A stretch of 64,000 bases of DNA from assembly GCF_030149425.1 (NCBI RefSeq), contig NZ_JASBRQ010000068.1, positions 62,001 through 126,000 of the forward strand, written 5' to 3'. Below the pieces are notes generated by a model. That model was not told the origin of the DNA and searched no databases. It saw only the letters and a program-made list of their open reading frames with translations. The position numbers and the translations under genes were made by a program. This stretch comes from Maricaulis sp. GTDB taxonomy: Bacteria; Pseudomonadota; Alphaproteobacteria; Caulobacterales; Maricaulaceae. Each line of letters starts with the position of its first letter. The first letter of the stretch is position 1. This document shows positions 7,606-60,874 of this stretch, piece by piece.

Positions 7606-9231
7606 ATGCTGGCACTTTCTCATAACTCGGCTGTCGAGACACGCGACGCGCTGATCGTGGGCGGCGGTCATAACGGTCTGGTTTGCGCTGCCTATCTGGC
7701 CGAAGCGGGCCTGAACGTCACCGTCCTGGAACAGCGCGACATTGTCGGCGGTGCTGCGGTAACAGAGGAATTCCACCCCGGTTTCCGCAATTCCGTCGCC
7801 TCCTACACGGTCTCCCTGCTTAACCCGAAAGTGATTGCCGATCTTGATCTGCATCGCTACGGGCTGAAAATCGTCGAGCGCAAGGTCAGCAATTTCCTGC
7901 CGCTCGATGACGGCTATCTGCTCGCCGGTGAAGGCCTGACACGCGATCAGGTGGCAAAGTTTTCCCAAGCAGACGCGGACCGGCTGGAGGAATTCAATAC
8001 CCGGCTTGAAACCATTGCCGATACGCTGCGCCAGCTGGTTCTGGAAACCCCGCCCAATCTGCGTGAGGGCGGCTGGCTCTCGGCCCTGCCCGAGCTGATC
8101 AAGGCCGCCGGCCTGGGCGGCCGCCTCGGCGGCATGCCCATGGGCACCAAGCGGGACCTGCTCGACCTGTTCTCGAAATCCGCAGGCGACTGGCTCGATG
8201 GCTGGTTTGAGAGCGAGCCGATCAAGGCCCTGTTGGGTTTCGACAGCGTCGTCGGCAATTACGCCAGCCCCTATACGCCGGGCTCCGCCTATGTCCTGCT
8301 GCACCACGTCTTCGGCGAGGTGAACGGCAAGAAGGGCAGCTGGGGTCATGCCATTGGCGGTATGGGCGCGATTACCCAGGCCATGGCGCGCTGCTGTGAA
8401 GACCGGGGTGTGGAGATCCGTACCGGTTGCCGGGTGGCTGAAGTGCTCACCGAGGACGGCGCGGCGGCAGGCATCGTGCTGGAAAGCGGTGAAGTGCTGA
8501 GCGGCCGGGCCGTGATCTCCAATCTCAATCCCAAACTCCTGTTCGGCTCTCTCGTCGACCAAGACGCCCTGCCCGCTGATTTCAACGACCGCATCGCCCG
8601 TTATCGCTGCGGTTCCGGCACCTTCCGGATGAATCTCGCCCTGTCCGAACTGCCACGCTTCACCTGCCTGCCGGAGGCCGGCGATCATCTCACCGCCGGC
8701 ATCATCATTGCGCCGAGCCTGGCCTATATGGAAAAGGCTTATAGCGATGCCCGGCGCCAGGGCTGGTCGAGCGAACCGATCATCGAAATGCTGATCCCGT
8801 CCCTGCTCGACGAGACGCTGGCGCCAGACGGCCAGCATGTCGCCAGCCTGTTCTGCCAGCACGTCGCACCGGTCCTGCCCGGCGGGGCAAGCTGGGATGA
8901 TCACCGCGAAACGGTAGCGGATTTGATGATCGATACGGTCGATCAATGGGCCCCGGGGTTCAAACAATCCGTACTCGGCCGCCAGGCCCTGTCTCCGCTG
9001 GATCTGGAACGCACATTCGGGCTGGTCGGCGGCGATATCTTCCACGGCGCCCTGAGCCTCGACCAGCTGTTCTCCGCGCGCCCGGTCCTCGGCCATGCCG
9101 ATCACCGCAGCCCGCTGAAACGGCTCTATCAATGCGGCTCCGGCACCCATCCCGGCGGCGGTGTGACCGGTGCACCCGGCCATAACGCAGCGCGGGAAAT
9201 CCTCAAGGACGTCCGGGCCCGGCGCATATAA
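7606..9231 (+). CDS. FAD-dependent oxidoreductase, phytoene-dehydrogenase-like
   Basis: The 541-residue protein opens with an FAD-binding Rossmann motif (VGGGHNGLVCAAYLAEAG, about residues 19-36) and ERD-type strand end, and closes with the second dinucleotide-binding signature GSGTHPGGGVTGAPGHNAA. This pattern marks the NAD(P)/FAD oxidoreductases related to phytoene dehydrogenase and human PYROXD2. The ATG at 7606 was chosen over the in-frame ATG 42 codons upstream, which lies in the previous gene and adds no recognisable sequence. It is 52 bases after the hotdog gene and may belong to the same operon. It probably desaturates or oxidises the pathway intermediate; the substrate is unknown. 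Confidence 0.85.
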   Translation: MLALSHNSAVETRDALIVGGGHNGLVCAAYLAEAGLNVTVLEQRDIVGGAAVTEEFHPGFRNSVASYTVSLLNPKVIADLDLHRYGLKIVERKVSNFLPLDDGYLLAGEGLTRDQVAKFSQADADRLEEFNTRLETIADTLRQLVLETPPNLREGGWLSALPELIKAAGLGGRLGGMPMGTKRDLLDLFSKSAGDWLDGWFESEPIKALLGFDSVVGNYASPYTPGSAYVLLHHVFGEVNGKKGSWGHAIGGMGAITQAMARCCEDRGVEIRTGCRVAEVLTEDGAAAGIVLESGEVLSGRAVISNLNPKLLFGSLVDQDALPADFNDRIARYRCGSGTFRMNLALSELPRFTCLPEAGDHLTAGIIIAPSLAYMEKAYSDARRQGWSSEPIIEMLIPSLLDETLAPDGQHVASLFCQHVAPVLPGGASWDDHRETVADLMIDTVDQWAPGFKQSVLGRQALSPLDLERTFGLVGGDIFHGALSLDQLFSARPVLGHADHRSPLKRLYQCGSGTHPGGGVTGAPGHNAAREILKDVRARRI

Positions 9232-9313
9232 CTATCCCGTTTATGGTTTTTGGTTGCGTTGCGCTAATCGAAGCCCTTATCCTTTTCATGCCTGTTTAGA
9301 AGGGGATAGGACT

Positions 9314-9889
9314 ATGGCTAAGAAGGGCAAGCTGAGCCGCCGCTCATTTCTGCTGAATGTCTCTGGGGGCATTGTTACGGCAGGCGCCATGGCCTCGGTC
9401 ACCGGCCGGGCCGAGGCGCTGCAGCAATATACTGGCGAAACCGACAACGATTCGGGCAGCTATGCGGACCGGGCCGGCTATGGCCGCCAGCGTCGCACCG
9501 GCAATACCGATAATGACAGCGGCAGCGGCGCGGACCGCGCCGGATATGGTCGCCAGTCGCGCACAGGCAACACCGACAACGACAGCGGCACCTATGCCGA
9601 CCGGGCCGGCTACGGCTCGCAACGCCGCACCGGCAATACCGACAATGACAGCGGCTCCAACGCAGACCGCGCCGGATACGGTCGCCAATCGCGCACAGGC
9701 AACACCGATAACGATAGCGGATCCAACGCAGACCGCGCCGGATACGGTCGCCAGTCACGCACAGGCAACACCGACCGGGATAGCGGATCTAACGCAGATC
9801 GCGCCGGATATGGCCGCCAATCGCGCACCGGCTGCACCGATAGCGATGGCGGATCCAACGCGGACCGCGCCGGATACGGTCGCTGCTAG
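9314..9889 (+). CDS. Tat-signal protein made of seven 22-residue repeats
   Basis: This 191-residue protein is not one I recognise. Residues 1-35 form a twin-arginine signal (SRRSFLL, then a hydrophobic stretch to GRAEA). Everything after residue 39 is seven tandem repeats with consensus TGNTDNDSGSNADRAGYGRQSR. Each has a D-x-D-S-G segment like calcium-binding loops and an ADRAGYGR block. The last repeat is two residues short and is the only one with cysteines (TGC and the final Cys). The start follows AGGGGATAGG. It stands alone between an FAD oxidoreductase and a strong terminator. It would be exported folded or with a cofactor, possibly as a surface or periplasmic metal-binding or structural protein; function is unknown. 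Confidence 0.75.
   Translation: MAKKGKLSRRSFLLNVSGGIVTAGAMASVTGRAEALQQYTGETDNDSGSYADRAGYGRQRRTGNTDNDSGSGADRAGYGRQSRTGNTDNDSGTYADRAGYGSQRRTGNTDNDSGSNADRAGYGRQSRTGNTDNDSGSNADRAGYGRQSRTGNTDRDSGSNADRAGYGRQSRTGCTDSDGGSNADRAGYGRC
9431..9886 (+). repeat. Seven 66-bp tandem repeats inside the Tat-signal gene
   Basis: Six full 66-bp units and one 60-bp unit run in frame. Copies 4 to 6 are nearly identical in protein and the first three vary at positions 9-11 and 20-21 of the unit, which suggests recent expansion from the 3' half. Confidence 0.9.
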
Positions 9890-9905: not shown

Positions 9906-9946
9906 AAAAAGGGGCGGGCCGCATCATCGCAGCCCGCCCCTTTTTT
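9906..9946. terminator. Bidirectional intrinsic terminator
   Basis: A perfect 9-bp GC stem (9911-9919 with 9932-9940) is flanked by AAAAA on one side and TTTTTT on the other. It lies between the convergent repeat-protein gene and ppa and can stop transcription from both. Confidence 0.92.
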
Positions 9947-9968: not shown

Positions 9969-10490
9969 TCAGGCGCGCGCGACGGCTTCCATGATCAGCT
10001 GCTGGGCTTTCTCGGCATCGCCCCAGCCTTGGACTTTCACCCATTTATTGGGCTCAAGATCCTTATAATGCTCGAAGAAGTGCGTGATCCGGGCCAGCAG
10101 CGGCTTCTGCACGTCGGTGAAATTCTTCACGTCGTCATAGAAAGGCGTGAGCTTGGTGTGCGGCGCCGCGAGAATTTTCTCGTCCAGCCCGCTCTCATCT
10201 TCCATCAAGAGCACACCAACCGGACGCGCCCGGACAACGCAACCCGGCATCAAAGTGGTCTGGCCCAGCACCATGACGTCAATCGGATCGCCGTCATCAG
10301 ACAGGGTGTGCGGCATGAAGCCGTAATTGCACGGATACATCATCGGCGTATGCAGGAAACGGTCGACGAAAACCGTACCGGCATCCTTGTCCATCTCGTA
10401 TTTGACCGGCTGGCCGCCGACCGGGACTTCGATGATCACATTGATGTCTTCCGGCGGATTGATACCGGCAGAGATTTTATCAAGGCGCAT
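9969..10490 (-). CDS. ppa: Inorganic pyrophosphatase (soluble, family I)
   Basis: The 173-residue cytoplasmic enzyme hydrolyses pyrophosphate to two phosphates and so pulls biosynthetic reactions forward. It shows the family I active-site run [10 protein letters not shown] with three metal-binding Asp, [18 protein letters not shown] near residue 30, and a late [16 protein letters not shown]. Length is usual for bacterial family I. The ATG at 10490 was chosen because AAGGAG lies 8 bases upstream; the frame opens 28 codons earlier. It is convergent with the repeat gene and divergent from mobA. Confidence 0.97.
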
Positions 10491-48088: not shown

Positions 48089-51000
48089 CTAGAATTTCAG
48101 CCCGACCTCGAAACCAGCGCTGTGGTTGTCGGTCGTATCGCCATACTGGCCGCTATAGCCGAAGGAGATGCGGATATTGTCACCGCCGGAGAAGTCGACA
48201 CCGGCATCGAAGGTGATCAGCTCCTGATCAATCTCCGTGATGATGTCCGCCGGGATGGTGCCGTTCGGTGCATCGCGGAAGCTGATCGGCAGGCCGACAT
48301 GATCCTGCTGCGTCAGACGGCCACCCAGAGCCAGCGAGAAGCGGGTATAAGCGCCGCTCTCACGCTCGTTGAAGTAACCGAACTCCAGATTGGGCGAGAA
48401 GCTGGTGATGTACTGCGTCTCACCATCCGAGCGCACGCCATTACCCTGGGCCCCGATCTCGTAGAGACCGCCATGGATCAGCGAGGTCACCGCAACCTCT
48501 GCCGACGGCAGGAGGTAGTAGCGATTACCCTCGAACTCATAGCGCTTGCCCGCGGCCAGGCGCATGTCGACATAACCGGCATCCGGACCGCTTTCGATCT
48601 GGAACGGCTCCCATAGACGCATCAGGCGCGTGGTGTCGTACTGCATCCAGCCACCCGACAGGGCACCGGAGATAACGCCGCCATCAGCCCAGTGACGCTG
48701 CAGGGTCATACCCATGGTGACGCCGTCACCGCTGGTATAGGCCCGGCCGGCATCGATGGAGTGGATGTTCACCGACTCGATACCGATCGCCATACCGATC
48801 CGCCACAGATCATTGAGCGGACGCTGGTGACCGGCGCGCAGTGAGGTCGTGTCCATCTGCGTGCCGAAGCGTTCAAAGCTGCTGTCGCGATCTGCCGTAC
48901 CGGCATCGATACGCACGAAGCTGCATTCTTCACCCAGATCCATCAGCGTTGCGGTGCCGCAACCCTGCAGATCATCGCTGAAGCTGGCCGCCGTATTCAG
49001 CAGGCCCTGGAGCGGTGCGATATGCGGCTCCGGGTTCAGCTCGGTCATGAGGAAGTTGTAAAGCTCCTCATCCTGCAGATTACCCAACCAGGCCAGCAGA
49101 CGGCCGGTGCCTTCCGCACCGCCAACCAGCAGGTTGGAGTCCATATGGGCACCCAGTTCCTGCTCATTGCGGTTGAGACCGTTCACACCGCCAAAGTCGG
49201 TGTCGATGTTGAGCAGGACATCACCGGCCTGCGTGGTGATGGAGAAGTCCACCGCCAGCGTGTCCGTGATCTCCAGACCATTATCCGTCGCCGTTCCCGT
49301 CGGGGAGGTGAAGAGCGGCGTCGGCACCGCATCGGACAGCCAGATGAAGGTCACATCACCGGTACCGTCGACATCCGCATCACCGGTCAGGGTGACGAGG
49401 TCATAGTCATACGGTCCGAAGGCCACGTCGAAGTTGAGATAACCGGTATCGGTCTGGACGTAGTTACCGTCCAGCTGCACGTCATTGATGACGCGCGCAC
49501 CGTAGTAGACGTTGAACAGCGGATCGCCCTCATCGTCGAGGTTATAGAACTCAGCCGACGGATCCTGCAGGTCGATCGGCAGCGTGGTCGCTGCCAGGCC
49601 CATCAGGAAATTGCCCTCATTGGTAAAGGTCGCCGGGTCACCCGGTGCGGCTGCCAGCGGGATAACCGGAGCATCCATGACCGAGGTGACCGGGGTCTGG
49701 ACCGCGGTCTGAACCGCAGGGCTCAGCACGGCCTGAACCGCCAGCTTCGGCGCCACAGGGTCGCTTGAGGTCACGACGATCTCATCGGAAGCATCATCGC
49801 TGGACGCGGCCGTGTCTTCAGCGGCGGCTTCCGCCGGCCCCATCAGAGCAGCTTCACCGCGCACCGGTTCACCGGCTGCCGGCGTAGCCACGGCCACGAG
49901 ACCGAAGCCAGAAGCGTTGGTCGCGGTTCCATCCGTCACCGAACCGAAGGCCTCGCCTTCACCGCCACCCGGCGCGAAGGCGACCAACTGACCCGAGGCC
50001 GCATTGTCGGTCGCAACCGGAGCGAAGGCGGCGCTATCGGCCGCTACAGGCGTCGCCGCCGGAGCCGAGGAGGCCACCGGAGCATCCGCCGGAGCCGGGG
50101 ATGCCGCCGCAACCGGCGTGTCAGACGTTGCCAGCTTGATCGGACCGGAGCTCGTCTCAGACCCCGGAGCCGTATCCGACACCGGCGTCTTCAGATCCGT
50201 CGACGTCGTTGCGACCAGGCCGAGAGCCCCTTCGCTCGCCGTCGGGGCAATCACCATGCGCTGGGCCAGAGACTGGCTACCCGCACCATTGCCAACCTTC
50301 AGCGGCGATTGCGGCGAGCCCGTCGGGTCACGCAGATCAATCGTGTTGAAGGCCATAAAGGTGGAGCCAAGCTGGTTATTGAACCGGTTGATACCGGAGC
50401 CCAGATCGATATTGCCGACCACAAGACCGGTATTGTTCACCGTGTCATTGCCGGTGGTCATGTTCATCGCCCAACCGGACACGGCAGACACCGTACCGGA
50501 CGTGTTGAGAACATTGTTGCTGCCACCGTCATAGAACACGCCCATGCCGAACAGCGAACCACCGCGGATATCGCTATCCAGGGTGATGACCATGTCATCG
50601 GTGCCGTCGCGAGCGTCAGACTGGGACAGGACCGCGACAGCATTGACGTCCGGCGCGATCACATCACCGGAGTGGATGATGTTCACCTCACCGGCAACAC
50701 CCGCACCGAGGAAGCTGCCGAGCGAGCCCAGGGACGAACCGAAATTGCCCAGCAGGCCGCCACCGCCGCCGACAGACTGGGCGAAGATGCCCGTCGCGCC
50801 GAAGCCGCGGATATTGATATTGCCATTGGTCCGGATGGTGATGTCACCGCCATCGCCGTCACCGCCCGAGAACGGGTTGAGGCCGACATTGGTGGTGTAG
50901 GTACCGAAGCCGAAGGAGTAGTCGCCGGCTGCACCGCCGCCACCACCGATGGACTGGGCAAAGATACCGTAGGCGCCGAAGCCCTCCGTGGTGATATTGC

Positions 51001-54000
51001 CGGTATGGGTGATGTTGATGTCACCGCCATCGCCGGCCGAACCGCCGACACCGGAAATCGTCACATCGCCCCAGGCACCGACCGAGCCGGCACCGCCGAC
51101 GCCGCCGCCGCCACCGACCGACTGAGCCATGATGCCATGGGCACCGTCGCCAGACGTGAAGATGGAGCCGGAATTGGTGATGTTGATATCGCCACCATCA
51201 CCGGCTGCGCCGCCTTTACCACCGATATTCAGGGTCAGGGACGGGTTATCGAAGCTGTCCAGCAGCTGGTAGAATTCGGTCAGGTCTGCAGCGGTCTGGA
51301 TCGCAGCGCCGAGAGCCGTGCGGCTATCATTGCTGTCATCATAGTCGGTCGCGCCACCGACACCGCCACCGCCACCGATGGACTGGGCGAAGATGCCGTG
51401 GGCGTTGGAGCCGGTCGTGGAGACCGCACCGCTATTGTCGACCGTGACATTGCCACCGTCACCGGCTGCACCGCCGGCGCCGCCAACAGCCACGTTGCCG
51501 GCCAGGCCGGAGCCGCCGACACCGCCGCCGCCACCGATCGACTGGGCGAAGATGCCGTAACCGCTGCGGGCATTGTCGGCGAAGATGACACCGCTATTGG
51601 TGACGACGACATTGCCGCCATCGCCAGCCGCACCACCGGTACCACCGATATTGACCGAAGCTGCGCGGTTCTCGTCATTGGAGATGAAGCCGAGCCAGGT
51701 TTTCACCAGCTCGCCGGACTGGGAGACCAGCCCGCCTTCACCACCGCCGCCGCCGACGGACTGGGCGAAGATACCGTTGGACATTTCACCGCTGACGCCG
51801 ATCGCGCCCTGGTTATCAACGCTTACAGCGCCGCCGTCGCCGCCCGTGCCACCGGAACCACCCATGGACACCGACACCTGGGTGTCGCGCGTCGCGGATT
51901 GGTCGGTAGAGTTGTAGGAGGTCACGAAGCCGCCAGCATCGCCACCACGGCCACCGCCGCCACCGACGGACTGGGCGAAGACACCGTGGGCCGCGCCACC
52001 AAGAGTGATGATTGCGCCGGTATTGGTCACGTCGACGGATCCGCCCACGCTGCCCGTACCGCCGGAGCCACCGATGCCGATGGCGTAATTGCCGTTCTTG
52101 CCGGCGCCGAAGGAGCCCGAAGTGGCAAGACCAACGCCGCCATCACCGCCGCCGCCACCGATAGACTGGGCGTAGACGCCGACCGCCTGGTTACCCAGGG
52201 TCAGAATGGCTGCATCCGTGTTGACCGTGACTGAGCCACCGGAGTTACCGGCACCGCCAGCGCCACCGATCGAGACGTTGAGGCTGTTGGAATTGGTCCC
52301 CAGGCTGACCGAGGTCGAACCGGTCAGGAAGGCGCCGAAAGTGTCTTCATCAACACCGACCATGCCACCCTGGCCGCCACCGCCGCCAATCGACTGAGCG
52401 AAGATCGCGTGCGAAGCCTCGCCCGTGGTCTGCACGATGCCATCGGCCGTGACCGAAACCGCACCACCAGTGCTGCCATCGCCGGCATCGCCACCGACAG
52501 ACAGGTCGATCGTGTTGGAGTTGGACCCCGTCATCGACAGATTGCCGGCATAGCCGCCCTGGCCGCCGCCACCGCCAACGGATTCAGCGAAGATACCGTA
52601 GGAGGCCGCGCCCGAGGTCGTGATCGTACCGGACTGGCTGACCGAGACCGTGCCGCCTGTGCCGCCAATACCGCCGCTGCCGCCGATCGAGACGTTGAGC
52701 GAGTTGGAGTTGGAGAGCGAGAAGGAGCCGGAGAAGGTCGAGCCGCCATTACCGCCGCCGCCACCGATGGACTGGGCAAAGATGCCGTGGGAGGCATTGC
52801 CAATCGTACCGATATCGGTCGTCGAAGTGATGGAAACCGTGTTGCCGTCACCGCCCCCGGCGCCGCTGCCGCCGATGGCGACACCGAGCGAGGTCGTGTT
52901 GGAGGACGTCAGCGCACCGGAGAAGGTACCGGCGAAGCCGCCATTACCGCCGCCGCCACCGATCGACTGGGCAAACAGGCCGTGCGAGCCGGCGCCTTCG
53001 GTCGTGACCGTGCCTTGCGAGGTGATGCCCGCCGCACCGGCCTGACCGGCCGTTCCGCCGGAACCACCCAGAGCCACGTTCAGGGACGTGCTTCCGGAAC
53101 CGCCGGTGAGCGAACCGGCGAGCGAGAAGCCGCCATTACCGCCACCGCCGCCGAGCGACTGCGCGAAGATACCGTGCGCGGCATCACCGAGGGTGGAAAC
53201 GCCCACCTCCTGCGAGATCGAGACGTCGCCGGCATCGCCGCCGCCGCCGCCGGAACCGCCAAGCGACACACCGATAGTCCGGCTGGTCGAACCGGAATAG
53301 GCCGCCGCCAGATTGCCGGACCAGCCGCCATTACCGCCGCCGCCGCCAACAGACTGGCCGAACAGGCCGTGCGAGCGATCACCGCCCGTGGTCACACCTT
53401 GAGTGGACGCAATCGTCACCGCATCGGCATTGCCCGCGCCGCCACCGGTACCACCGATGGACACGCTGGCCGTATTCGCCGACTGGCTGGCGCCGCCACC
53501 GGAACCGGACAGCGAGAAGCCGCCGGTACCACCGCCGCCGCCGACAGACTGAGCTTGAACGCCGGAGGAATCATTGCCGAGGGTCGAGATGATGGCCGAG
53601 TTGGTCACCGAAACAGCAGCGGCATCATTGCCGGAGCCGCCGTCACCGCCGAGCGAGACCGAAGCCGTCGTCGTGGAATTGCCGATTGCGAAGGCCAAAG
53701 AGCCAGACCAGCCGCCACGACCACCGCCGCCAGCGATAGACTGAGCCAGGATGCCCTGGGCCTGATCGCCTTCAGTGATGATGATGTTGGAATTGTCGAC
53801 CGTGACCGTTCCGCTGGTTGCTCCGCTGCCGCCATTGCCGCCGAGGCTGACAGAGGCCGAGAGCGGGCTGCCGGAACCGGCAACTGCGGCCGAACCGGAC
53901 AGCGAGAAGCCACCGGCACCACCGCCGCCGCCGACGGACTGGGCGAGAATACCCACGCCGCCATTGGATGTCGTGCCGATCGCACCGGAATTGGTCACGG

Positions 54001-57000
54001 AAACATTGTTGCCGAGACCACCCGTGCCGCCATCACCACCGAGAGAGACCGAAGCGGCGTTCGCAGTCGAACCGACAGCGATCGCGCCGGACACCGAGAA
54101 GCCACCATTACCGCCACCGCCGCCAACGGATTGAGCGACAATACCGGCCGCATTGGCGCCGTCGGTCGTAATGGTCGCCGTGTTGTTGACCGATACGGTG
54201 CCGGCATCATTACCGGAGCCGGCATCGCCGCCCATGCTGAGCGCAAGCGAACCGGCGGTCGAGCCGGCAGAACCGGAGGCGGCAAACGAGAAGCCGCCAT
54301 TACCACCCCCGCCACCGACGGATTGGGCCAGAATGCCGTGGGCACTATCGCCGAGCGTCGCGACACCTGCGGTATTAGCAACCGTCACGGCCGCGGACGT
54401 ACCACCGCTGCCACCGTCGCCACCCATGGCAACCGATGCGGAGTAGGCATTGGACCCGCCGGACACAGCAACCGCGCCGGCCCAGCCGCCATTACCGCCA
54501 CCGCCGCCGACAGACTGGGCGAAGATGCCGTGGGCGCTATTGCCGGACGTGTTGATGATCGCAGAGTTGGTGACACCAACGGTCGAAGCCGCACCACCGG
54601 TACCGCCATCACCGCCCATGGCAAAGCCCAGAGCCGGGAAGGACGAGGTGCCTGCCGCGAGACCAACACTCAAACCGAAATGGCCATTACCGCCACCGCC
54701 ACCAATGGATTGGGCAGCCAGGGCAATAGCGGAGTCACCGGAGGTGACGATTTCGCCGGAGTTGTCGACCGTGACGGCACCGGCCACACCGCCGGAACCG
54801 CCGTTCTGACCACCGATACCGAAGGACGCAGCAACGCCGTTCGACCCGACACCGAGAGACCCGGTTGCGGAGAAGGCGCCGTTACCACCACCGCCACCGA
54901 TCGACTGGGCCAGGATGCCCATGGCCGCATCGCCGCCGGTCAGGATCATGGAGGAGTTGGAGACGCCGACGGTGGAACCGTCGCCGCCATCGGAGCTGTT
55001 GCCACCGATGGAATAAGGCACAGCAAAGGATGTCGTCGATCCGGCAAAGGTCGCCGAGCCGGAAACCGCGAAGCCGGCATCACCGCCGCCGCCGCCCAGG
55101 GACTGGGCGAAAATCGCATGCGCTGCATCGCCCGCCGTGGTGACGAAGTCACCGGAGTTGAGCAGCGTTACAGCACCGGCATTACCGCCATTGCCACCAT
55201 CGCCGCCAAGCGCCAGGGCACCGCCGAGAGCGTTCGAGCCGGCCGCATTCACATTGCCGGAAATGGCGAAGCCACCGGCACCGCCACCGCCGCCGACGGA
55301 CTGGGCGAACATGCCGTGAGAGCGATCACCGCTCGTGGCAACCCAATCGCTCGAGGACAGCGAGACCGTACCGGCATTACCGCCGATTGCGCCGCTTGCA
55401 CCGAAGGCGAGGTCAATACCGATTGCGCTCGAGCCGGTACCGTTGATGGAGCCGGAGATCGAGGAGCCGCCATTACCGCCACCGCCACCGATGGACTGGG
55501 CGAAGATGCCGGTCGACTCGTCGCCGAGGGTTAGAACAGCGCCGTTGGAGACGGTGGTCACATTGCCAGCATCGCTGGCCGCACCTGCGCCGCCGCCGAT
55601 CGATACGCCGATCGAACCGCCATTGGAGCCAGCCAGTGTGATGGACCCGGTGATGGACATGCCACCATTACCGCCACCGCCGCCGATCGACTGGGCGAGG
55701 ATACCGTGCGAACGGTCACCTTGCGTGTAGACCAGGTCTTGCGTGGCGACATTGACGTTATTGCCGTTGGCGCCTGCACCACCGGAACCACCGAGGGCGA
55801 AATTAATGCCCATGGCGTTGGAGCTACCCGCCGTGATCGCACCGGAGATGGCCAGACCGCCATCACCACCGCCACCGCCGATGGACTGCGCCAGAATACC
55901 GTGAGCGTCATCGCCGACCGTCGAAACGGCCTCATCGGTGTTGACCGTGACAACACCCGGCGTATCGCCGGTGCCGCCGGCGCCACCGATGGAAACACCA
56001 ATCGTCACAGCCTGTTGGCCAAAGCTCAGGCCGCCGGCAATGGACATGCCGCCATTACCGCCGCCGCCGCCAAGCGACTGGGCAGAAATACCGTGGGCGC
56101 CATCGCCCTGCGTGCTGACGACATCCGCGTTGACCGTGACGTTGCCGGCCTGGCCACCAGATCCGCCGCCGCCGCCGATCGCAACATTCAGAGCACCGCC
56201 GACCGTGCCGCCGAGGCCTGCTCCGGCAGAGATGGCGAAACCGCCATTACCGCCGCCACCACCGATGGACTGGGCCAGGATGCCGATCGCGTCATTGCTG
56301 ACGGTGTAGACTTCGTCGGCCGTGACCAGGACTGAACCTGCAACCCCGCCATCACCGGCGCCGCCACCAATCGACACACCGACAGAGCCGCCGACGGTAC
56401 CACCGCCGCCTGCACCGGCAGACAGCGAGAAGCCGCCATTACCGCCGCCGCCACCGATGGACTGGGCCATGACGCCGATCGCACCTTCGCCCATGGTCTG
56501 GACGTCGTCGACCGTGACCGTGACACTGTCGGCATTCCCGCCAACCGCGCCGGTTCCGCCAAGCGCGACATTGACCGATCCGCCAACCGTGCCGCCGAAG
56601 CCTGCGCCTGCAGCGATGGCGAAGCCGCCATTACCGCCGCCGCCGCCAATCGACTGGGCCAGCACACCATGGGCGTCACTGCCCTGGGTGATGATGTGTT
56701 CGCTCTGGGAAACCGTGACCGTGCGCGCGAAGGAGCCGGCACCGCCGCCGCCACCGATCGATACGCCGACACCGACGCCGCCCGTGCCGCCAGCCGTGAT
56801 ATTGCCGGTCGCAGACCAGCCACCATTACCGCCGCCGCCGCCAATGGACTGCGCCGCGATACCATGCGAGCCGGCACCCGAGGTTTCGACAACAGCCGTC
56901 GACGAGACCAGCACGTCATCGGCATTGGAACCCGCGCCGGCACTACCGCCGAGCGCGACATTGACCGCGCCACCGGCGGTACCACCGACTGCGAGCGTAC

Positions 57001-60000
57001 CGGACACGGCGAAACCGCCATTACCGCCGCCGCCGCCGATCGATTGGGCGAGGATACCGTGGGAGATATCGCCAAAGGTGAAAATGCCATCACTCGACGT
57101 GACCTGGACATCGCCGTTGACGATGCCGCCACCGCCACCGTCACCGCCAAGCGAAACGCCAACGCCGACACCCGCCGTGCCACCAATGGAAATGGAACCG
57201 GTCGCAGACCAGCCACCATTACCACCGCCGCCACCGACCGACTGGGCGAACAGGCCGTGGGAGTTATTGCCCGTCGTCGTGATCTGGCCGGTGCTGTTCA
57301 TCGTCACAGCACTGGAATAGGAGCCGGCACCGCCATCACCGCCCAGGGCGACATCAACACCGATACCCGCTGCGCCACCAGCCGTCAGAGAGCCGGAGAA
57401 GGAGAAGCCGCCATTACCGCCAGCACCACCGATCGACTGCGCCACCAGGCCGTGGGAGTTATCCCCCGTCGTCGAGACATTGCTGGTGGAGCCGAACGTA
57501 ACCGTGTCGCCATAGCCGCCGGTTGCGCCGTCGCCACCAAGCGAAACGCCGACACCGACCGCCGCGCCATCGGAGATGGCGAGCGTCGCCGTACCGGACC
57601 AGCCACCATTACCACCGCCGCCACCGACGGATTGCGCCAGGGCGCCGAACGAGTTGTCGCCGCGGGTCTGAAGATCGCCGTCTGTAAAGACGCTGACGAC
57701 ACCGCCATCACCGCCCGATCCACCATCGCCGCCAATGGCAACGGAAACAGATGCGGAAGCCCCCAGACCCACGCTCACCGAACCGGCAAAGCTCTGGCCG
57801 CCATTACCGCCGCCGCCACCGACGGCCTGGGCAATAATACCGTGCGAGTTGGCGCCGAATGTGGTGACCGAACCGTCTGTATTGATATTGACGACACCAC
57901 CATCACCACCGGCGCCGCCTTCACCGCCAACCGCGACGCTGACGGAACCGAAGGCACCAATGGAACCGGCCACCGAATAGCCGCCATTACCGCCACCGCC
58001 ACCAACGGACTGAGCCAGAATACCAGCCGAGTTGTCGCCGCGGGTTTCAATATCGCCGTCGGAACTGGAATTGACGTTGACCGTACCGCCCTGGCTGCCT
58101 GAGCCGGCGTCACCACCGATTGCGACAGAGGCGAACAGGCCGCCGGAAACAGCGTTACCGCCATTACCGCCGCCGCCACCGATCGACTGGGCAATCAGAC
58201 CGCCCGAGTTCTCGCTGATGGTCAGAACGTTGCCGTTCACGTTGACGGTTACATCATCGGCGTTCTGGCCGTTACCGCCAGCACCACCGACGGAGATCAT
58301 ACCGCCCGCGCCGCCGCCATTACCGCCGCCGCCACCGATCGACTGGGCTACAATACCGGTCGAGTTGACGCCTTGTGTTTGGATCACATCGGTGGTGGTC
58401 ACCTCAACAGTGCCACCGAGACCGCCGCCACCACCCGTGCCGCCAATCGCGCCAAGGCCGCCGGCCGTGCCGCCATTACCGCCACCGCCGCCGATAGACT
58501 GGGCGAGGACGCCGAAGGCGCGAACGCCTTCGGTCAAAACACTTCCCGTGGAGACATCAACGGCCGCACCATCGCCGCCACTATCAGCGCTGCCACCAAT
58601 GCCGACCAGGCCCGCCGAGGAGCCACCATTACCGCCACCGCCACCGATGGCCTGAGCAATAATGCCGTGCGCGTCATCGCCATAGGTCACGGTCGTCCCG
58701 CTACCGCTGACGGTCACGATATTGGCGCTGCCGCCGCCCGAGCCGGAGCCACCAATGGCCGCCAGGCCGCCGGAGGACGCACCGGTACCGCCACCGCCAC
58801 CGATGGACTGAACGATGATACCGACGGCGCCTTCACCGCGCGTGGTAATCAGGCCGTCATGATGGACCAGAACTTCACTTGATGCACCGCCATCACCACC
58901 GGCACCACCAACGGCGACCAGCCCGCCCGTGCTCCGGCCGGATCCACCGCCGCCGCCAATCGACTGCGCGATAATGCCGTGTGAGAAGGCACCCGTGCCG
59001 CCGGTAATACCGGTATCAATGGAGCCATAGTTATAGACTGTCACTGTGCCGGCATTACCACCACTACCGGACGAGCCGCCGATGGCTGCCACGCCGCCGG
59101 CTGCGCCGGAGCGACCACCGCCGCCACCAACAGACTGGGCAAAGATACCCGGCGCATCATTGTTCCGCGTGACGATGGCACCGGTCGAAAAGTTATTGAC
59201 GGTTACATTGCCGCCGGCGCCGGCACCACCGCCGCCACCACCCGAGGCAAACAAGCCGCCGGACGCACCGGCATCACCGCCGGATCCACCGACGGATTGC
59301 GCAAAAATACCGGCAGAGTTCAATCCGCTGGTGATAATCGAGCCGTGATTGTCAACTCTTACCGTTGAACCATTACCGCCGGTTGAGCCGCTGTCGGCAT
59401 CACCCACAATACCGAAACTTGAACCGCCCGTGCCCGAAGAACCGCCCATCGACTGGGCGAGAATACCGTTGGAATCTGCGCCTGTGGTCGAGATAGCCCC
59501 GTAATTGACCACACGCACCGTGCCACCCTCGGCCGCCGGGCCAGAGGAGCCACCATCGGACCAGATGAAGCCAGAGCCACCATCGCCGCCACGGCCTGCG
59601 CGGGACTGGGCAAAGATTCCATGGGCACCCGTACCGGAGGTCGACACGTCGACATAGCTGGTCAGATCGACCGCACCACCGGCGCCGGAAGCACCACCTT
59701 CATAGCCCTGGAAGCCAAAACCGGCCGCGTTACCGCCCTTGCCGCCATCACCGCCGATGGAAATGGCGGAAATACCGGACAGACCGTCGGTTACGGACTG
59801 CACATTGCCATTATTGACGACCGTAATGACGCGGGTGATATCCGGGCCATCGCCACCATCCCCACCGGGCGAACCGTTCGCGCCGATCGTGAAACACTTG
59901 ATGATACAGATCCGGGCTCCCCAGGCATTGCTGCCGCCGGCGCCATTGGTGCCGGTGAGCCACTCGGAGTAGACATTGACATTGCCCGCGGGGATGGTCG

Positions 60001-60493
60001 GGCTGATATTGGCGCCGGGGGAACCAGGGGCGCCGGCAATGCCGGAAGATGCACCATTGATCTGGCTGGCACGCGAGGTCACCGAGGAGAAGGTGACCTT
60101 GGTGCCGCCACTGTCTTCACCCTCGATCGAAATAATCCGGCCGCCGCTATCGGTGTTGATCTTGGTAACCGTGTAGATCGTACCAGAGCCGGGGTTCTCG
60201 CCTGTCGCTGTAGGGTCAATGAAGGTGTCGCCCACCGTGTCGGCCAGAACGATGATGTTCAACGCATCGGTAAAGACGACATTATCGCCCAGCACCGCCT
60301 CGACGACTTCGCTCGCCCCCGTCACCGGGTTGGTAATCGTCGATCCAACCGTTTGCGCGTAAGCGCTCGGCGCAACAACCGCCGCCAGCGCCATGGTCGC
60401 AAGCGCCGCTCCCATGGCATGCATGGACGATCCGGCGAGCAGACGAGCTGCACGACGCGCACGAGTCGCGGACACTTTTGATTTGCTGGACAC
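48089..60493 (-). CDS. Giant autotransporter with about 48 glycine-rich repeats
   Basis: The protein is 4134 residues. A GTG start at 60493 lies five bases after GGGGGAGG; the ATG 21 codons upstream has no such site. The first 46 residues are an extended signal peptide ending SAYAQ. The passenger is built of repeats of about 50-70 residues, each with GI-x-AQS-[IV]-GGGGGNGG, then a beta-strand rich stretch and an SLGGDGGSGG-like turn, the pattern of a beta-helix adhesin. A Pro/Ala/Ser linker (about 3420-3500) and a further beta-rich segment precede a C-terminal beta-barrel (about 3858-4134) ending in Phe (VGLKF), as in type V secretion. It should be displayed on the cell surface; the ligand is unknown. 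Confidence 0.93.
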   Translation of the reverse strand: MSSKSKVSATRARRAARLLAGSSMHAMGAALATMALAAVVAPSAYAQTVGSTITNPVTGASEVVEAVLGDNVVFTDALNIIVLADTVGDTFIDPTATGENPGSGTIYTVTKINTDSGGRIISIEGEDSGGTKVTFSSVTSRASQINGASSGIAGAPGSPGANISPTIPAGNVNVYSEWLTGTNGAGGSNAWGARICIIKCFTIGANGSPGGDGGDGPDITRVITVVNNGNVQSVTDGLSGISAISIGGDGGKGGNAAGFGFQGYEGGASGAGGAVDLTSYVDVSTSGTGAHGIFAQSRAGRGGDGGSGFIWSDGGSSGPAAEGGTVRVVNYGAISTTGADSNGILAQSMGGSSGTGGSSFGIVGDADSGSTGGNGSTVRVDNHGSIITSGLNSAGIFAQSVGGSGGDAGASGGLFASGGGGGGAGAGGNVTVNNFSTGAIVTRNNDAPGIFAQSVGGGGGRSGAAGGVAAIGGSSGSGGNAGTVTVYNYGSIDTGITGGTGAFSHGIIAQSIGGGGGSGRSTGGLVAVGGAGGDGGASSEVLVHHDGLITTRGEGAVGIIVQSIGGGGGTGASSGGLAAIGGSGSGGGSANIVTVSGSGTTVTYGDDAHGIIAQAIGGGGGNGGSSAGLVGIGGSADSGGDGAAVDVSTGSVLTEGVRAFGVLAQSIGGGGGNGGTAGGLGAIGGTGGGGGLGGTVEVTTTDVIQTQGVNSTGIVAQSIGGGGGNGGGAGGMISVGGAGGNGQNADDVTVNVNGNVLTISENSGGLIAQSIGGGGGNGGNAVSGGLFASVAIGGDAGSGSQGGTVNVNSSSDGDIETRGDNSAGILAQSVGGGGGNGGYSVAGSIGAFGSVSVAVGGEGGAGGDGGVVNINTDGSVTTFGANSHGIIAQAVGGGGGNGGQSFAGSVSVGLGASASVSVAIGGDGGSGGDGGVVSVFTDGDLQTRGDNSFGALAQSVGGGGGNGGWSGTATLAISDGAAVGVGVSLGGDGATGGYGDTVTFGSTSNVSTTGDNSHGLVAQSIGGAGGNGGFSFSGSLTAGGAAGIGVDVALGGDGGAGSYSSAVTMNSTGQITTTGNNSHGLFAQSVGGGGGNGGWSATGSISIGGTAGVGVGVSLGGDGGGGGIVNGDVQVTSSDGIFTFGDISHGILAQSIGGGGGNGGFAVSGTLAVGGTAGGAVNVALGGSAGAGSNADDVLVSSTAVVETSGAGSHGIAAQSIGGGGGNGGWSATGNITAGGTGGVGVGVSIGGGGGAGSFARTVTVSQSEHIITQGSDAHGVLAQSIGGGGGNGGFAIAAGAGFGGTVGGSVNVALGGTGAVGGNADSVTVTVDDVQTMGEGAIGVMAQSIGGGGGNGGFSLSAGAGGGGTVGGSVGVSIGGGAGDGGVAGSVLVTADEVYTVSNDAIGILAQSIGGGGGNGGFAISAGAGLGGTVGGALNVAIGGGGGSGGQAGNVTVNADVVSTQGDGAHGISAQSLGGGGGNGGMSIAGGLSFGQQAVTIGVSIGGAGGTGDTPGVVTVNTDEAVSTVGDDAHGILAQSIGGGGGDGGLAISGAITAGSSNAMGINFALGGSGGAGANGNNVNVATQDLVYTQGDRSHGILAQSIGGGGGNGGMSITGSITLAGSNGGSIGVSIGGGAGAASDAGNVTTVSNGAVLTLGDESTGIFAQSIGGGGGNGGSSISGSINGTGSSAIGIDLAFGASGAIGGNAGTVSLSSSDWVATSGDRSHGMFAQSVGGGGGAGGFAISGNVNAAGSNALGGALALGGDGGNGGNAGAVTLLNSGDFVTTAGDAAHAIFAQSLGGGGGDAGFAVSGSATFAGSTTSFAVPYSIGGNSSDGGDGSTVGVSNSSMILTGGDAAMGILAQSIGGGGGNGAFSATGSLGVGSNGVAASFGIGGQNGGSGGVAGAVTVDNSGEIVTSGDSAIALAAQSIGGGGGNGHFGLSVGLAAGTSSFPALGFAMGGDGGTGGAASTVGVTNSAIINTSGNSAHGIFAQSVGGGGGNGGWAGAVAVSGGSNAYSASVAMGGDGGSGGTSAAVTVANTAGVATLGDSAHGILAQSVGGGGGNGGFSFAASGSAGSTAGSLALSMGGDAGSGNDAGTVSVNNTATITTDGANAAGIVAQSVGGGGGNGGFSVSGAIAVGSTANAASVSLGGDGGTGGLGNNVSVTNSGAIGTTSNGGVGILAQSVGGGGGAGGFSLSGSAAVAGSGSPLSASVSLGGNGGSGATSGTVTVDNSNIIITEGDQAQGILAQSIAGGGGRGGWSGSLAFAIGNSTTTASVSLGGDGGSGNDAAAVSVTNSAIISTLGNDSSGVQAQSVGGGGGTGGFSLSGSGGGASQSANTASVSIGGTGGGAGNADAVTIASTQGVTTGGDRSHGLFGQSVGGGGGNGGWSGNLAAAYSGSTSRTIGVSLGGSGGGGGDAGDVSISQEVGVSTLGDAAHGIFAQSLGGGGGNGGFSLAGSLTGGSGSTSLNVALGGSGGTAGQAGAAGITSQGTVTTEGAGSHGLFAQSIGGGGGNGGFAGTFSGALTSSNTTSLGVAIGGSGAGGGDGNTVSITSTTDIGTIGNASHGIFAQSIGGGGGNGGSTFSGSFSLSNSNSLNVSIGGSGGIGGTGGTVSVSQSGTITTSGAASYGIFAESVGGGGGQGGYAGNLSMTGSNSNTIDLSVGGDAGDGSTGGAVSVTADGIVQTTGEASHAIFAQSIGGGGGQGGMVGVDEDTFGAFLTGSTSVSLGTNSNSLNVSIGGAGGAGNSGGSVTVNTDAAILTLGNQAVGVYAQSIGGGGGDGGVGLATSGSFGAGKNGNYAIGIGGSGGTGSVGGSVDVTNTGAIITLGGAAHGVFAQSVGGGGGRGGDAGGFVTSYNSTDQSATRDTQVSVSMGGSGGTGGDGGAVSVDNQGAIGVSGEMSNGIFAQSVGGGGGEGGLVSQSGELVKTWLGFISNDENRAASVNIGGTGGAAGDGGNVVVTNSGVIFADNARSGYGIFAQSIGGGGGVGGSGLAGNVAVGGAGGAAGDGGNVTVDNSGAVSTTGSNAHGIFAQSIGGGGGVGGATDYDDSNDSRTALGAAIQTAADLTEFYQLLDSFDNPSLTLNIGGKGGAAGDGGDINITNSGSIFTSGDGAHGIMAQSVGGGGGVGGAGSVGAWGDVTISGVGGSAGDGGDINITHTGNITTEGFGAYGIFAQSIGGGGGAAGDYSFGFGTYTTNVGLNPFSGGDGDGGDITIRTNGNINIRGFGATGIFAQSVGGGGGLLGNFGSSLGSLGSFLGAGVAGEVNIIHSGDVIAPDVNAVAVLSQSDARDGTDDMVITLDSDIRGGSLFGMGVFYDGGSNNVLNTSGTVSAVSGWAMNMTTGNDTVNNTGLVVGNIDLGSGINRFNNQLGSTFMAFNTIDLRDPTGSPQSPLKVGNGAGSQSLAQRMVIAPTASEGALGLVATTSTDLKTPVSDTAPGSETSSGPIKLATSDTPVAAASPAPADAPVASSAPAATPVAADSAAFAPVATDNAASGQLVAFAPGGGEGEAFGSVTDGTATNASGFGLVAVATPAAGEPVRGEAALMGPAEAAAEDTAASSDDASDEIVVTSSDPVAPKLAVQAVLSPAVQTAVQTPVTSVMDAPVIPLAAAPGDPATFTNEGNFLMGLAATTLPIDLQDPSAEFYNLDDEGDPLFNVYYGARVINDVQLDGNYVQTDTGYLNFDVAFGPYDYDLVTLTGDADVDGTGDVTFIWLSDAVPTPLFTSPTGTATDNGLEITDTLAVDFSITTQAGDVLLNIDTDFGGVNGLNRNEQELGAHMDSNLLVGGAEGTGRLLAWLGNLQDEELYNFLMTELNPEPHIAPLQGLLNTAASFSDDLQGCGTATLMDLGEECSFVRIDAGTADRDSSFERFGTQMDTTSLRAGHQRPLNDLWRIGMAIGIESVNIHSIDAGRAYTSGDGVTMGMTLQRHWADGGVISGALSGGWMQYDTTRLMRLWEPFQIESGPDAGYVDMRLAAGKRYEFEGNRYYLLPSAEVAVTSLIHGGLYEIGAQGNGVRSDGETQYITSFSPNLEFGYFNERESGAYTRFSLALGGRLTQQDHVGLPISFRDAPNGTIPADIITEIDQELITFDAGVDFSGGDNIRISFGYSGQYGDTTDNHSAGFEVGLKF
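50750..59625 (-). repeat. About 48 in-frame repeat units of the autotransporter passenger
   Basis: Counting the AQS-x-GG motif by eye gives about 48 copies across nearly 9 kb. The glycine core is almost fixed while the flanks differ, so the units are old duplications kept by selection, with some neighbouring pairs closer to each other than to the rest. Confidence 0.85.
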
Positions 60494-60874
60494 GTATGCC
60501 TCCCCCGAACACCGCCCATCCCGGGGCGTACGCTCAAACAGTTTCGCGCCGCCCACGACGGACAGCGCTCCCCTCAGTGGCAGAATATAACCACATGCAA
60601 GGGCGTTAAGGAAAGCGATAGTTGCAAAATTTTGCTAAAATTATGCCCAACCCAACCACCTAGAAATTTCTGTTTTTTGTTTTAATTTCAGATCTCTAGA
60701 TGCATGCTGGAAACAATCCGAGGAATATTCAGATCTTCTGTTGTGAATCAACCACACCCACCCAAAGCCAGGGACACATTGCCAGCGCGCGCGGCATTAT
60801 ATTTTTTCCATAATGGATATTTTTCCAGTTTATACGCCGCATTACTTACTTCATCAGAAATTAAGGAGGCTGTT
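60494..60874. promoter_or_regulatory. Divergent AT-rich promoter region of autotransporter and microprotein
   Basis: This 381-base region is much richer in A and T than the genome around it. It holds a perfect 12-bp palindrome GCAAAATTTTGC (60624-60635), 131 bases from the autotransporter start, and two copies of TTCAGATCT (60687-60695 and 60728-60736) 41 bases apart. The pattern suggests binding sites for a regulator controlling the autotransporter, the microprotein, or both. No clear -10 or -35 was fixed. Confidence 0.45.

Follow-up and report, generated by a model that had tools for sequence, protein, structure and literature searches.

The stretch of Maricaulis DNA analysed here (64,000 nucleotides, called the window below) carries a gene for a repeat protein that is probably, at a rough probability of 0.7, one of several substrates of a dedicated JmjC 2-oxoglutarate/Fe(II) oxygenase. 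Comparison of sequences and genomes suggests that the repeats of this protein would be hydroxylated and that the chain would be exported by the Tat pathway. The oxygenase and three paralogues of the repeat gene are encoded outside the window and were for that reason missed by an earlier note on this DNA.

The window protein consists of a Tat signal, six repeats of 22 residues and a last repeat of 19 residues, with the repeats starting at residue 41 (Table 1). The earlier note had described seven near-identical 22-residue repeats; seven is the right number, but the last unit is shorter. Its reading of each unit as D-x-D-S-G followed by ADRAGYGR mostly holds, except that repeat 3 ends in GYGS and the last repeat reads DSDGG. 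As it had also seen, cysteines occur in the last repeat only; there are two of them, and they bracket this repeat. The predicted twin-arginine signal, with its SRRSFL motif, a hydrophobic stretch and a likely A-x-A cleavage site, AEA followed by LQ, was borne out, and a TatC gene is present in the same genome. Among the 156 residues that follow residue 35 are 21 Asp, 22 Arg and 30 Gly; Lys is absent, and a single Leu is the only hydrophobic residue besides tyrosines and alanines.

Table 1. Features of the repeat gene and its surroundings (positions in the window).
Feature	Position	Strand	Basis
Repeat protein gene	9314..9889	+	ORF, 191 aa + stop
Ribosome-binding-site-like AAGGGG	9300..9305	+	Upstream of start codon, by reading the sequence
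Tat signal peptide, SRRSFL motif, likely cut after AEA (residue 35)	9314..9418	+	Sequence; cleavage site inferred
Repeat 1, GETDNDSGSYADRAGYGRQRRT	9434..9499	+	Repeat alignment
Repeat 2, GNTDNDSGSGADRAGYGRQSRT	9500..9565	+	Repeat alignment
Repeat 3, GNTDNDSGTYADRAGYGSQRRT, sole repeat with GYGS instead of GYGR	9566..9631	+	Repeat alignment
Repeat 4, GNTDNDSGSNADRAGYGRQSRT	9632..9697	+	Repeat alignment
Repeat 5, GNTDNDSGSNADRAGYGRQSRT, same sequence as repeat 4	9698..9763	+	Repeat alignment
Repeat 6, GNTDRDSGSNADRAGYGRQSRT	9764..9829	+	Repeat alignment
Repeat 7, GCTDSDGGSNADRAGYGRC, 19 residues, flanked by two cysteines	9830..9886	+	Repeat alignment
Hairpin, 17-nt arms	9906..9945	.	Hairpin scan, minus strand reported
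Inorganic pyrophosphatase gene, neighbour of repeat gene	9969-10490	-	ORF identity
FAD-dependent amine-oxidase/desaturase-type protein gene, neighbour of repeat gene	7606-9231	+	ORF identity

When the units of the window protein were compared with each other, the mean pairwise identity was 84% for the protein (minimum 63%) and 76% for the DNA. Pooled over the units, dS was 0.97 and dN 0.16 (dN/dS 0.17). The DNA has thus drifted while the protein was kept, which places the repeat under purifying selection and excludes chance. The number of repeats differs between the window gene (7) and its closest relative (9), and a protein of the Maricaulis relative G007 is 97% identical to the window protein across residues 1-173. 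An AlphaFold2 run with 16 aligned family members left the repeats without a predicted fold (mean pLDDT 37.6).

The absence of a recognised family, also claimed by the earlier note, was confirmed: the window protein has no Pfam match at E<=1 and nothing above cut-off in NCBIfam. The sub-threshold NCBIfam matches included staphylococcal Ser-Asp adhesin repeats, which we took as an effect of composition. TIGR02811, the formate dehydrogenase region TAT target, matched weakly in the signal region only (residues 3-40); its 17.7 bits are far under the cut-off of 48.45 bits and the repeats were unmatched. Searches of the window protein against PDB sequences gave no match, nor did PADLOC for the repeat protein or the JmjC enzyme, nor a plasmid search. 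A match on contig C5 of the own genome (L005) was dropped, as it was short, chance-like and out-of-frame-looking and lay over an ftsQ/ftsA-like region.

Three more repeat genes were found in one cluster on contig C21 of the own genome (G000), followed by the JmjC gene. The order is ruvC (other strand), the three repeat genes, the JmjC gene and transketolase (other strand), with ruvC and transketolase identified by reading of the ORFs. The window gene has no JmjC neighbour and sits on another contig than its three sisters and the enzyme. Since this genome has four repeat genes and a single enzyme of the clade (at E<=1e-6), the enzyme would act on the window protein in trans. In the assembly, the third sister gene (L006:10410-11015) harbours an in-frame TAG about halfway through the repeats; its positional counterpart in G007 (L042) has no stop, and the TAG is either a true nonsense change or an assembly error.

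The partner enzyme matches JmjC_2 (PF08007) with 100.3 bits against a cut-off of 22, which identifies it as a JmjC 2-oxoglutarate/Fe(II) oxygenase. By sequence, its matches in the PDB are NO66, MINA53 and YxbC. The predicted model (pLDDT 90.9) was closest to NO66 in Foldseek (TM 0.76), followed by MINA53, YcfD and YxbC. An alignment of 20 enzymes shows no variation at H146, D148, H209 and K161, and these residues align with NO66; we take the H-x-D...H residues to bind Fe(II) and the basic residue K161 to bind 2-oxoglutarate. P137, Q156 and W231 are among the positions that set the repeat-linked clade apart from control JmjC proteins. At the C-terminus a domain is predicted in which strands (320-349) are followed by helices (350-387). 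This bbb-aaa order matches the RRE type, but a winged helix is common to the whole group of ribosomal oxygenases and the domain is therefore no proof of precursor binding.

To see how far repeats and enzyme go together, we searched 41 relatives, 19 of them Maricaulis genomes. Both were present in 19/19 Maricaulis genomes, and in all 19 the nearest ends of the repeat and enzyme matches lay within about 260 bp of each other; the lack of homologues in sister genomes, by which the earlier note would have had its own idea refuted, was thus not observed. At E<=1e-6, 18 Maricaulis genomes have one enzyme and G006 has two, each with its own repeat gene. The pair was also present in G022, from another genus of the same family, and in G030, from another family of the same order, where the repeats were detected by profile search only. 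In G020 the contig starts inside the enzyme gene and no repeat gene was found.

The repeat profile matched 9 genomes in a sample of 289 Alphaproteobacteria. The enzyme profile matched 39, with 10 at >=403 bits and the others at <=185 bits. A strong enzyme was found in 9/9 repeat genomes, adjacent to the repeats in all nine, as against 1/280 of the others. That tenth genome (G240) has no visible repeat; its contig ends 31 nt past the enzyme and the 4.7 kb upstream are empty. In a phylum sample of 329 genomes, repeats were found in 7 and a strong enzyme in 8, with both in 7/7 repeat genomes; in the eighth (G613), two short repeat genes under the profile threshold adjoin the enzyme. Fisher tests gave p values of 3e-16 (class) and 1e-13 (phylum), uncorrected for kinship, and the two samples share the positives G000, G030 and G282.

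Because profile A2, used to find the enzyme, derives from enzymes linked to repeats, two of which come from genomes in the class sample (G000 and G043), the boundary between strong and weak matches is partly circular. This point is addressed by a maximum-likelihood tree of 89 enzymes, in which 20 controls and the 69 others are split by one branch with a support of 100/100; several long branches were flagged, foremost that of L152. The 36 weaker JmjC matches of the class sample supplied the controls; the best 20 were taken with their surroundings. No repeat gene was found near these 20 homologues in the stretches of 5.8 to 11.5 kb examined. In the same tree the enzyme of the second G006 cassette (L051:6010-7734) falls among those of Erythrobacteraceae, and the repeat protein encoded in that cassette has a signal peptide whose first matches are repeat proteins of Erythrobacteraceae. 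A horizontal transfer of the repeat and enzyme pair as a unit is the likely origin of this cassette, as judged from these affinities. The enzyme of an 'Anaerolineae' MAG (L153) is almost identical to an alphaproteobacterial one (L155); that contig is probably mis-binned, so that we do not claim Chloroflexota as a host.

A pattern scan of named genomes gave at least 116 loci in 8 kb tiles. Among the matches listed, 101 loci hold an ORF of at least two repeats; in 51 of them an enzyme ORF of 200 aa or longer is present too. The remaining 50, which have none in the same tile and count against the link, are explained partly by tiles that cut loci and partly by scattered paralogues. The length rule left out a truncated enzyme in L063. 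The other 15 loci, which have no ORF with two repeats by the pattern, include true degenerate or single-repeat members (L084, L124, L130, L152 and L161). A Tat-signal protein with one clear repeat lies beside a JmjC gene in a gammaproteobacterial Granulosicoccaceae MAG (L152:3141-4650) and adjoins one in a Rhodobacteraceae strain (L161:4229-6167). An Acidobacteria MAG (L084:6706-8000) has a one-repeat Tat-signal protein by a JmjC gene that is cut by the tile and scores 36 bits only. When the neighbours were clustered in 72 loci, JmjC, with its antisense shadow, was the sole cluster that recurred across lineages. The next clusters reflect synteny within one lineage, and the flanking genes differ from lineage to lineage while the enzyme stays. 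Neither a protease nor a transporter is a recurrent neighbour across lineages in these 72 loci; a few neighbour genes were annotated from ORF reading alone.

The consensus of the repeat, [T/S]-D-x-D-x-G-x-x-A-D-x-x-G-x-G-R, is common to records of Alphaproteobacteria and Myxococcota. In 838 distinct windows in which only D9, G12 and G14 were fixed, D1 was kept in 87%, D3 in 87%, G5 in 86% and R15 in 91%, and some of the loss of D1 and D3 is due to a shorter variant in another register. Conversely, 931 windows with only [TS]DxD fixed showed D9 in 84%, G12 in 81%, G14 in 88% and R15 in 79%. Among the matches listed, repeat genes occur in Maricaulis, Oceanicaulis, Hyphobacterium, Woodsholea, Brevundimonas, Erythrobacteraceae, Parasphingopyxis, Pararhodobacter and Myxococcota. 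We collected 199 family members by pattern matching from overlapping genome sets, some of them ORFs without a sure start. By simple patterns, 179/199 have an RR-type motif ahead of the first repeat, 69/199 a Cys-bracketed repeat and 55/199 a lipobox-like pattern, with at least one false case among the last. A repeat protein of G187 (L179:5358-6197) carries a C-terminal PG_binding_1 fusion (67 bits), a domain match that hints at a cell-wall role for the family. Four short divergent members from the Rhodobacterales-like family f27 (L212, L213, L214 and L211) have two degenerate repeats each. In these, and also in L122 and L094, a K-T-L-x-D-x-x-I stretch is conserved before the RR motif and is a candidate recognition sequence for the JmjC enzyme.

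In the mechanism that we propose, the enzyme, encoded elsewhere beside the three sister genes, would bind the unfolded repeats in the cytoplasm and hydroxylate one residue per repeat, acting on the window protein in trans. The chain would then be exported by Tat and its signal cut off. The mature window protein, of about 156 aa, would be a soluble, flexible and charge-rich chain with a disulfide that closes its end; it may stay soluble or be released, with its lipoprotein and wall-binding relatives remaining anchored. The lipid anchors that sister proteins appear to carry, and the fusion of a family member from another species to a peptidoglycan-binding domain, suggest that the family works in the cell envelope, where it may form a metal-binding or surface-coating polymer. 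The earlier note had taken Tat export as a sign of folding before transport. This does not fit the disordered model, and the need to be modified in the cytoplasm would give the chain a different reason to use Tat.

As the hydroxylated residue we tentatively favour the Arg of GxGR, since a basic side chain is the target in those relatives of the enzyme whose targets are known (Arg for YcfD, His for NO66 and for MINA53, Orn for BipG) and since the YcfD target lies in a Gly-rich stretch. The main rival target is an Asp, which is a possible site because it is equally conserved and because a hydroxylated Asp would suit metal binding. That some other residue is modified is rather doubtful.

The repeats could instead belong to an unmodified calcium- or metal-binding envelope protein, whose D-x-D-x-G loops bind ions after export, with the JmjC protein doing something else, for example acting as a ribosomal oxygenase. 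Asp at repeat positions 1, 3 and 9 is strongly kept, acidic DxD loops resemble calcium loops in general, disorder in AlphaFold2 would be expected of an ion-dependent fold, and among solved structures the enzyme is closest to ribosomal oxygenases, which act on ribosomal proteins. Against this, no Pfam calcium repeat (EF-hand/dockerin, TSP3) matches and the EF-hand/TSP3-type DxDxDG spacing is absent: the window unit is spaced DxDxG with the next Asp six residues past the second, and the RTX motif differs from it as well. We consider this explanation unlikely, as it leaves the tracking of repeats by the enzyme (9/9 and 7/7 genomes) and their joint movement without a reason. It is also not exclusive, because modified repeats may bind metal, and the earlier note's calcium-binding surface layer or metal store may thus still apply. 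Even less probable is a low-complexity gene with hardly any function, or none, that is present in the genus by chance and whose link to the enzyme reflects hitch-hiking of neighbours. The disordered model and the quick change in repeat number would suit such a gene, but the inter-repeat dN/dS, the consensus common to Alphaproteobacteria and Myxococcota and an enzyme that stays while its flanking genes change already disfavour this reading, which we hold to be extremely improbable.

A multi-core precursor cut into seven short peptides, with or without hydroxylation, would account for the near-identical cores, for an N-terminal region that could be a leader and for a tailoring enzyme by the sister genes whose bbb-aaa domain is like RiPP recognition elements. 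The earlier note had proposed such a precursor and an Arg-rich protease junction between the units. The precursor idea survives in so far as a modifying enzyme seems to have the repeats as its substrates. A conserved cut site that would release seven peptides was not found: 539 of the 849 inter-repeat linkers are distinct, dibasic-type motifs occur in 126/849, and the genes recurring across lineages in the 72 loci include neither a protease nor a transporter. Moreover, Tat transports whole proteins, and the lipobox pattern and the one peptidoglycan-binding domain fit whole chains that are anchored. Cutting into peptides is therefore very unlikely, and hydroxylation of repeats in an exported chain is the reading that we prefer.

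Passages of PMC6182338 and PMC5862935 describe YcfD as acting on an Arg of a ribosomal protein in a Gly-rich stretch, NO66 as a ribosomal His hydroxylase, MINA53 as also targeting His, and the C-terminal winged helix as group-wide. Like these PF08007 ribosomal oxygenases (NO66/RIOX1, MINA53/RIOX2 and YcfD/RoxA), the partner enzyme has JmjC_2, the His-x-Asp...His and Lys positions and a C-terminal winged helix. The YcfD substrate peptide as given there, KPVTKKPAEVRMGKGKGSVE, has a flexible Gly-rich context similar to GxGR in the repeats. Unlike the ribosomal oxygenases, the partner enzyme belongs to a clade that is linked to genes for exported repeat proteins and separate from 20 other JmjC_2 proteins of Alphaproteobacteria. 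In biphenomycin synthesis the JmjC protein BipG hydroxylates a ribosomal peptide (Orn), according to parts of PMC12707348, and JmjC proteins are treated as peptide hydroxylases in passages of PMC12707348 and PMC12257519. Section 6 of PMC12710340 mentions fusions of RRE-like domains with JmjC proteins of PF08007, and bacterial homologues whose contexts are RiPP-like; it does not name the repeat family.

These RiPP pathways (BipG/BpmG and RRE-like JmjC) likewise have a JmjC gene beside a ribosomal substrate and a bbb-aaa C-terminal domain. In contrast to them, JmjC is here the sole recurrent enzyme, and the proposed substrates are Tat-exported many-repeat proteins, some of them anchored. A putative substrate gene by the gene of a putative tailoring enzyme is seen for the three sister genes and across genomes, not for the window gene; a division into leader and core has its counterpart in signal region and repeats, with no recurrent protease and no conserved inter-repeat cut site. 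In the open-licence PMC literature we found no description of the repeat family or of its pairing with the enzyme. A ribosomal substrate with a JmjC tailoring enzyme is thus of a known type, and the exported many-repeat form with proteins that are probably uncut is unusual.

In animals, AspH hydroxylates EGF repeats before they leave the cell, possibly tuning metal binding. The proposed system would follow the same logic with a different repeat, a different oxygenase subfamily (JmjC_2), and bacteria and Tat instead of the endoplasmic reticulum. For the broadest form of the proposal we see even odds. In it, JmjC oxygenases would act on each repeat of disordered, D/R-rich proteins that Tat exports, and the hydroxylated products would be metal-binding or surface polymers of the envelope, a new and widespread bacterial counterpart of AspH/EGF in which one enzyme serves scattered substrates in trans. 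If true, a JmjC clade of unknown function gains a clear substrate set with several identical target sites per molecule. Protein hydroxylation would also be linked to Tat export, which would explain the use of Tat by an apparently unfolded protein, and a name would be given to an envelope protein family of Alphaproteobacteria and Myxococcota without a Pfam or NCBIfam description for the members scanned. A complete repeat and JmjC cluster is present in the record (L131) of the marine type strain Maricaulis maris DSM 4734, which is in culture and would allow the system to be tested.

In the window itself, the hairpin separates the convergent repeat and pyrophosphatase genes and, with an A-run on one side and a T-run on the other, is terminator-like on both strands, as judged from its letters. 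A repeat gene that adjoins the pyrophosphatase gene is also present in G007 and, strongly diverged, in G010. Far downstream, at 48089-60556 on the minus strand, the window holds an ORF of 4155 aa with Gly-rich repeats, an apparent signal at its N-terminal end and an autotransporter-like C-terminal end.
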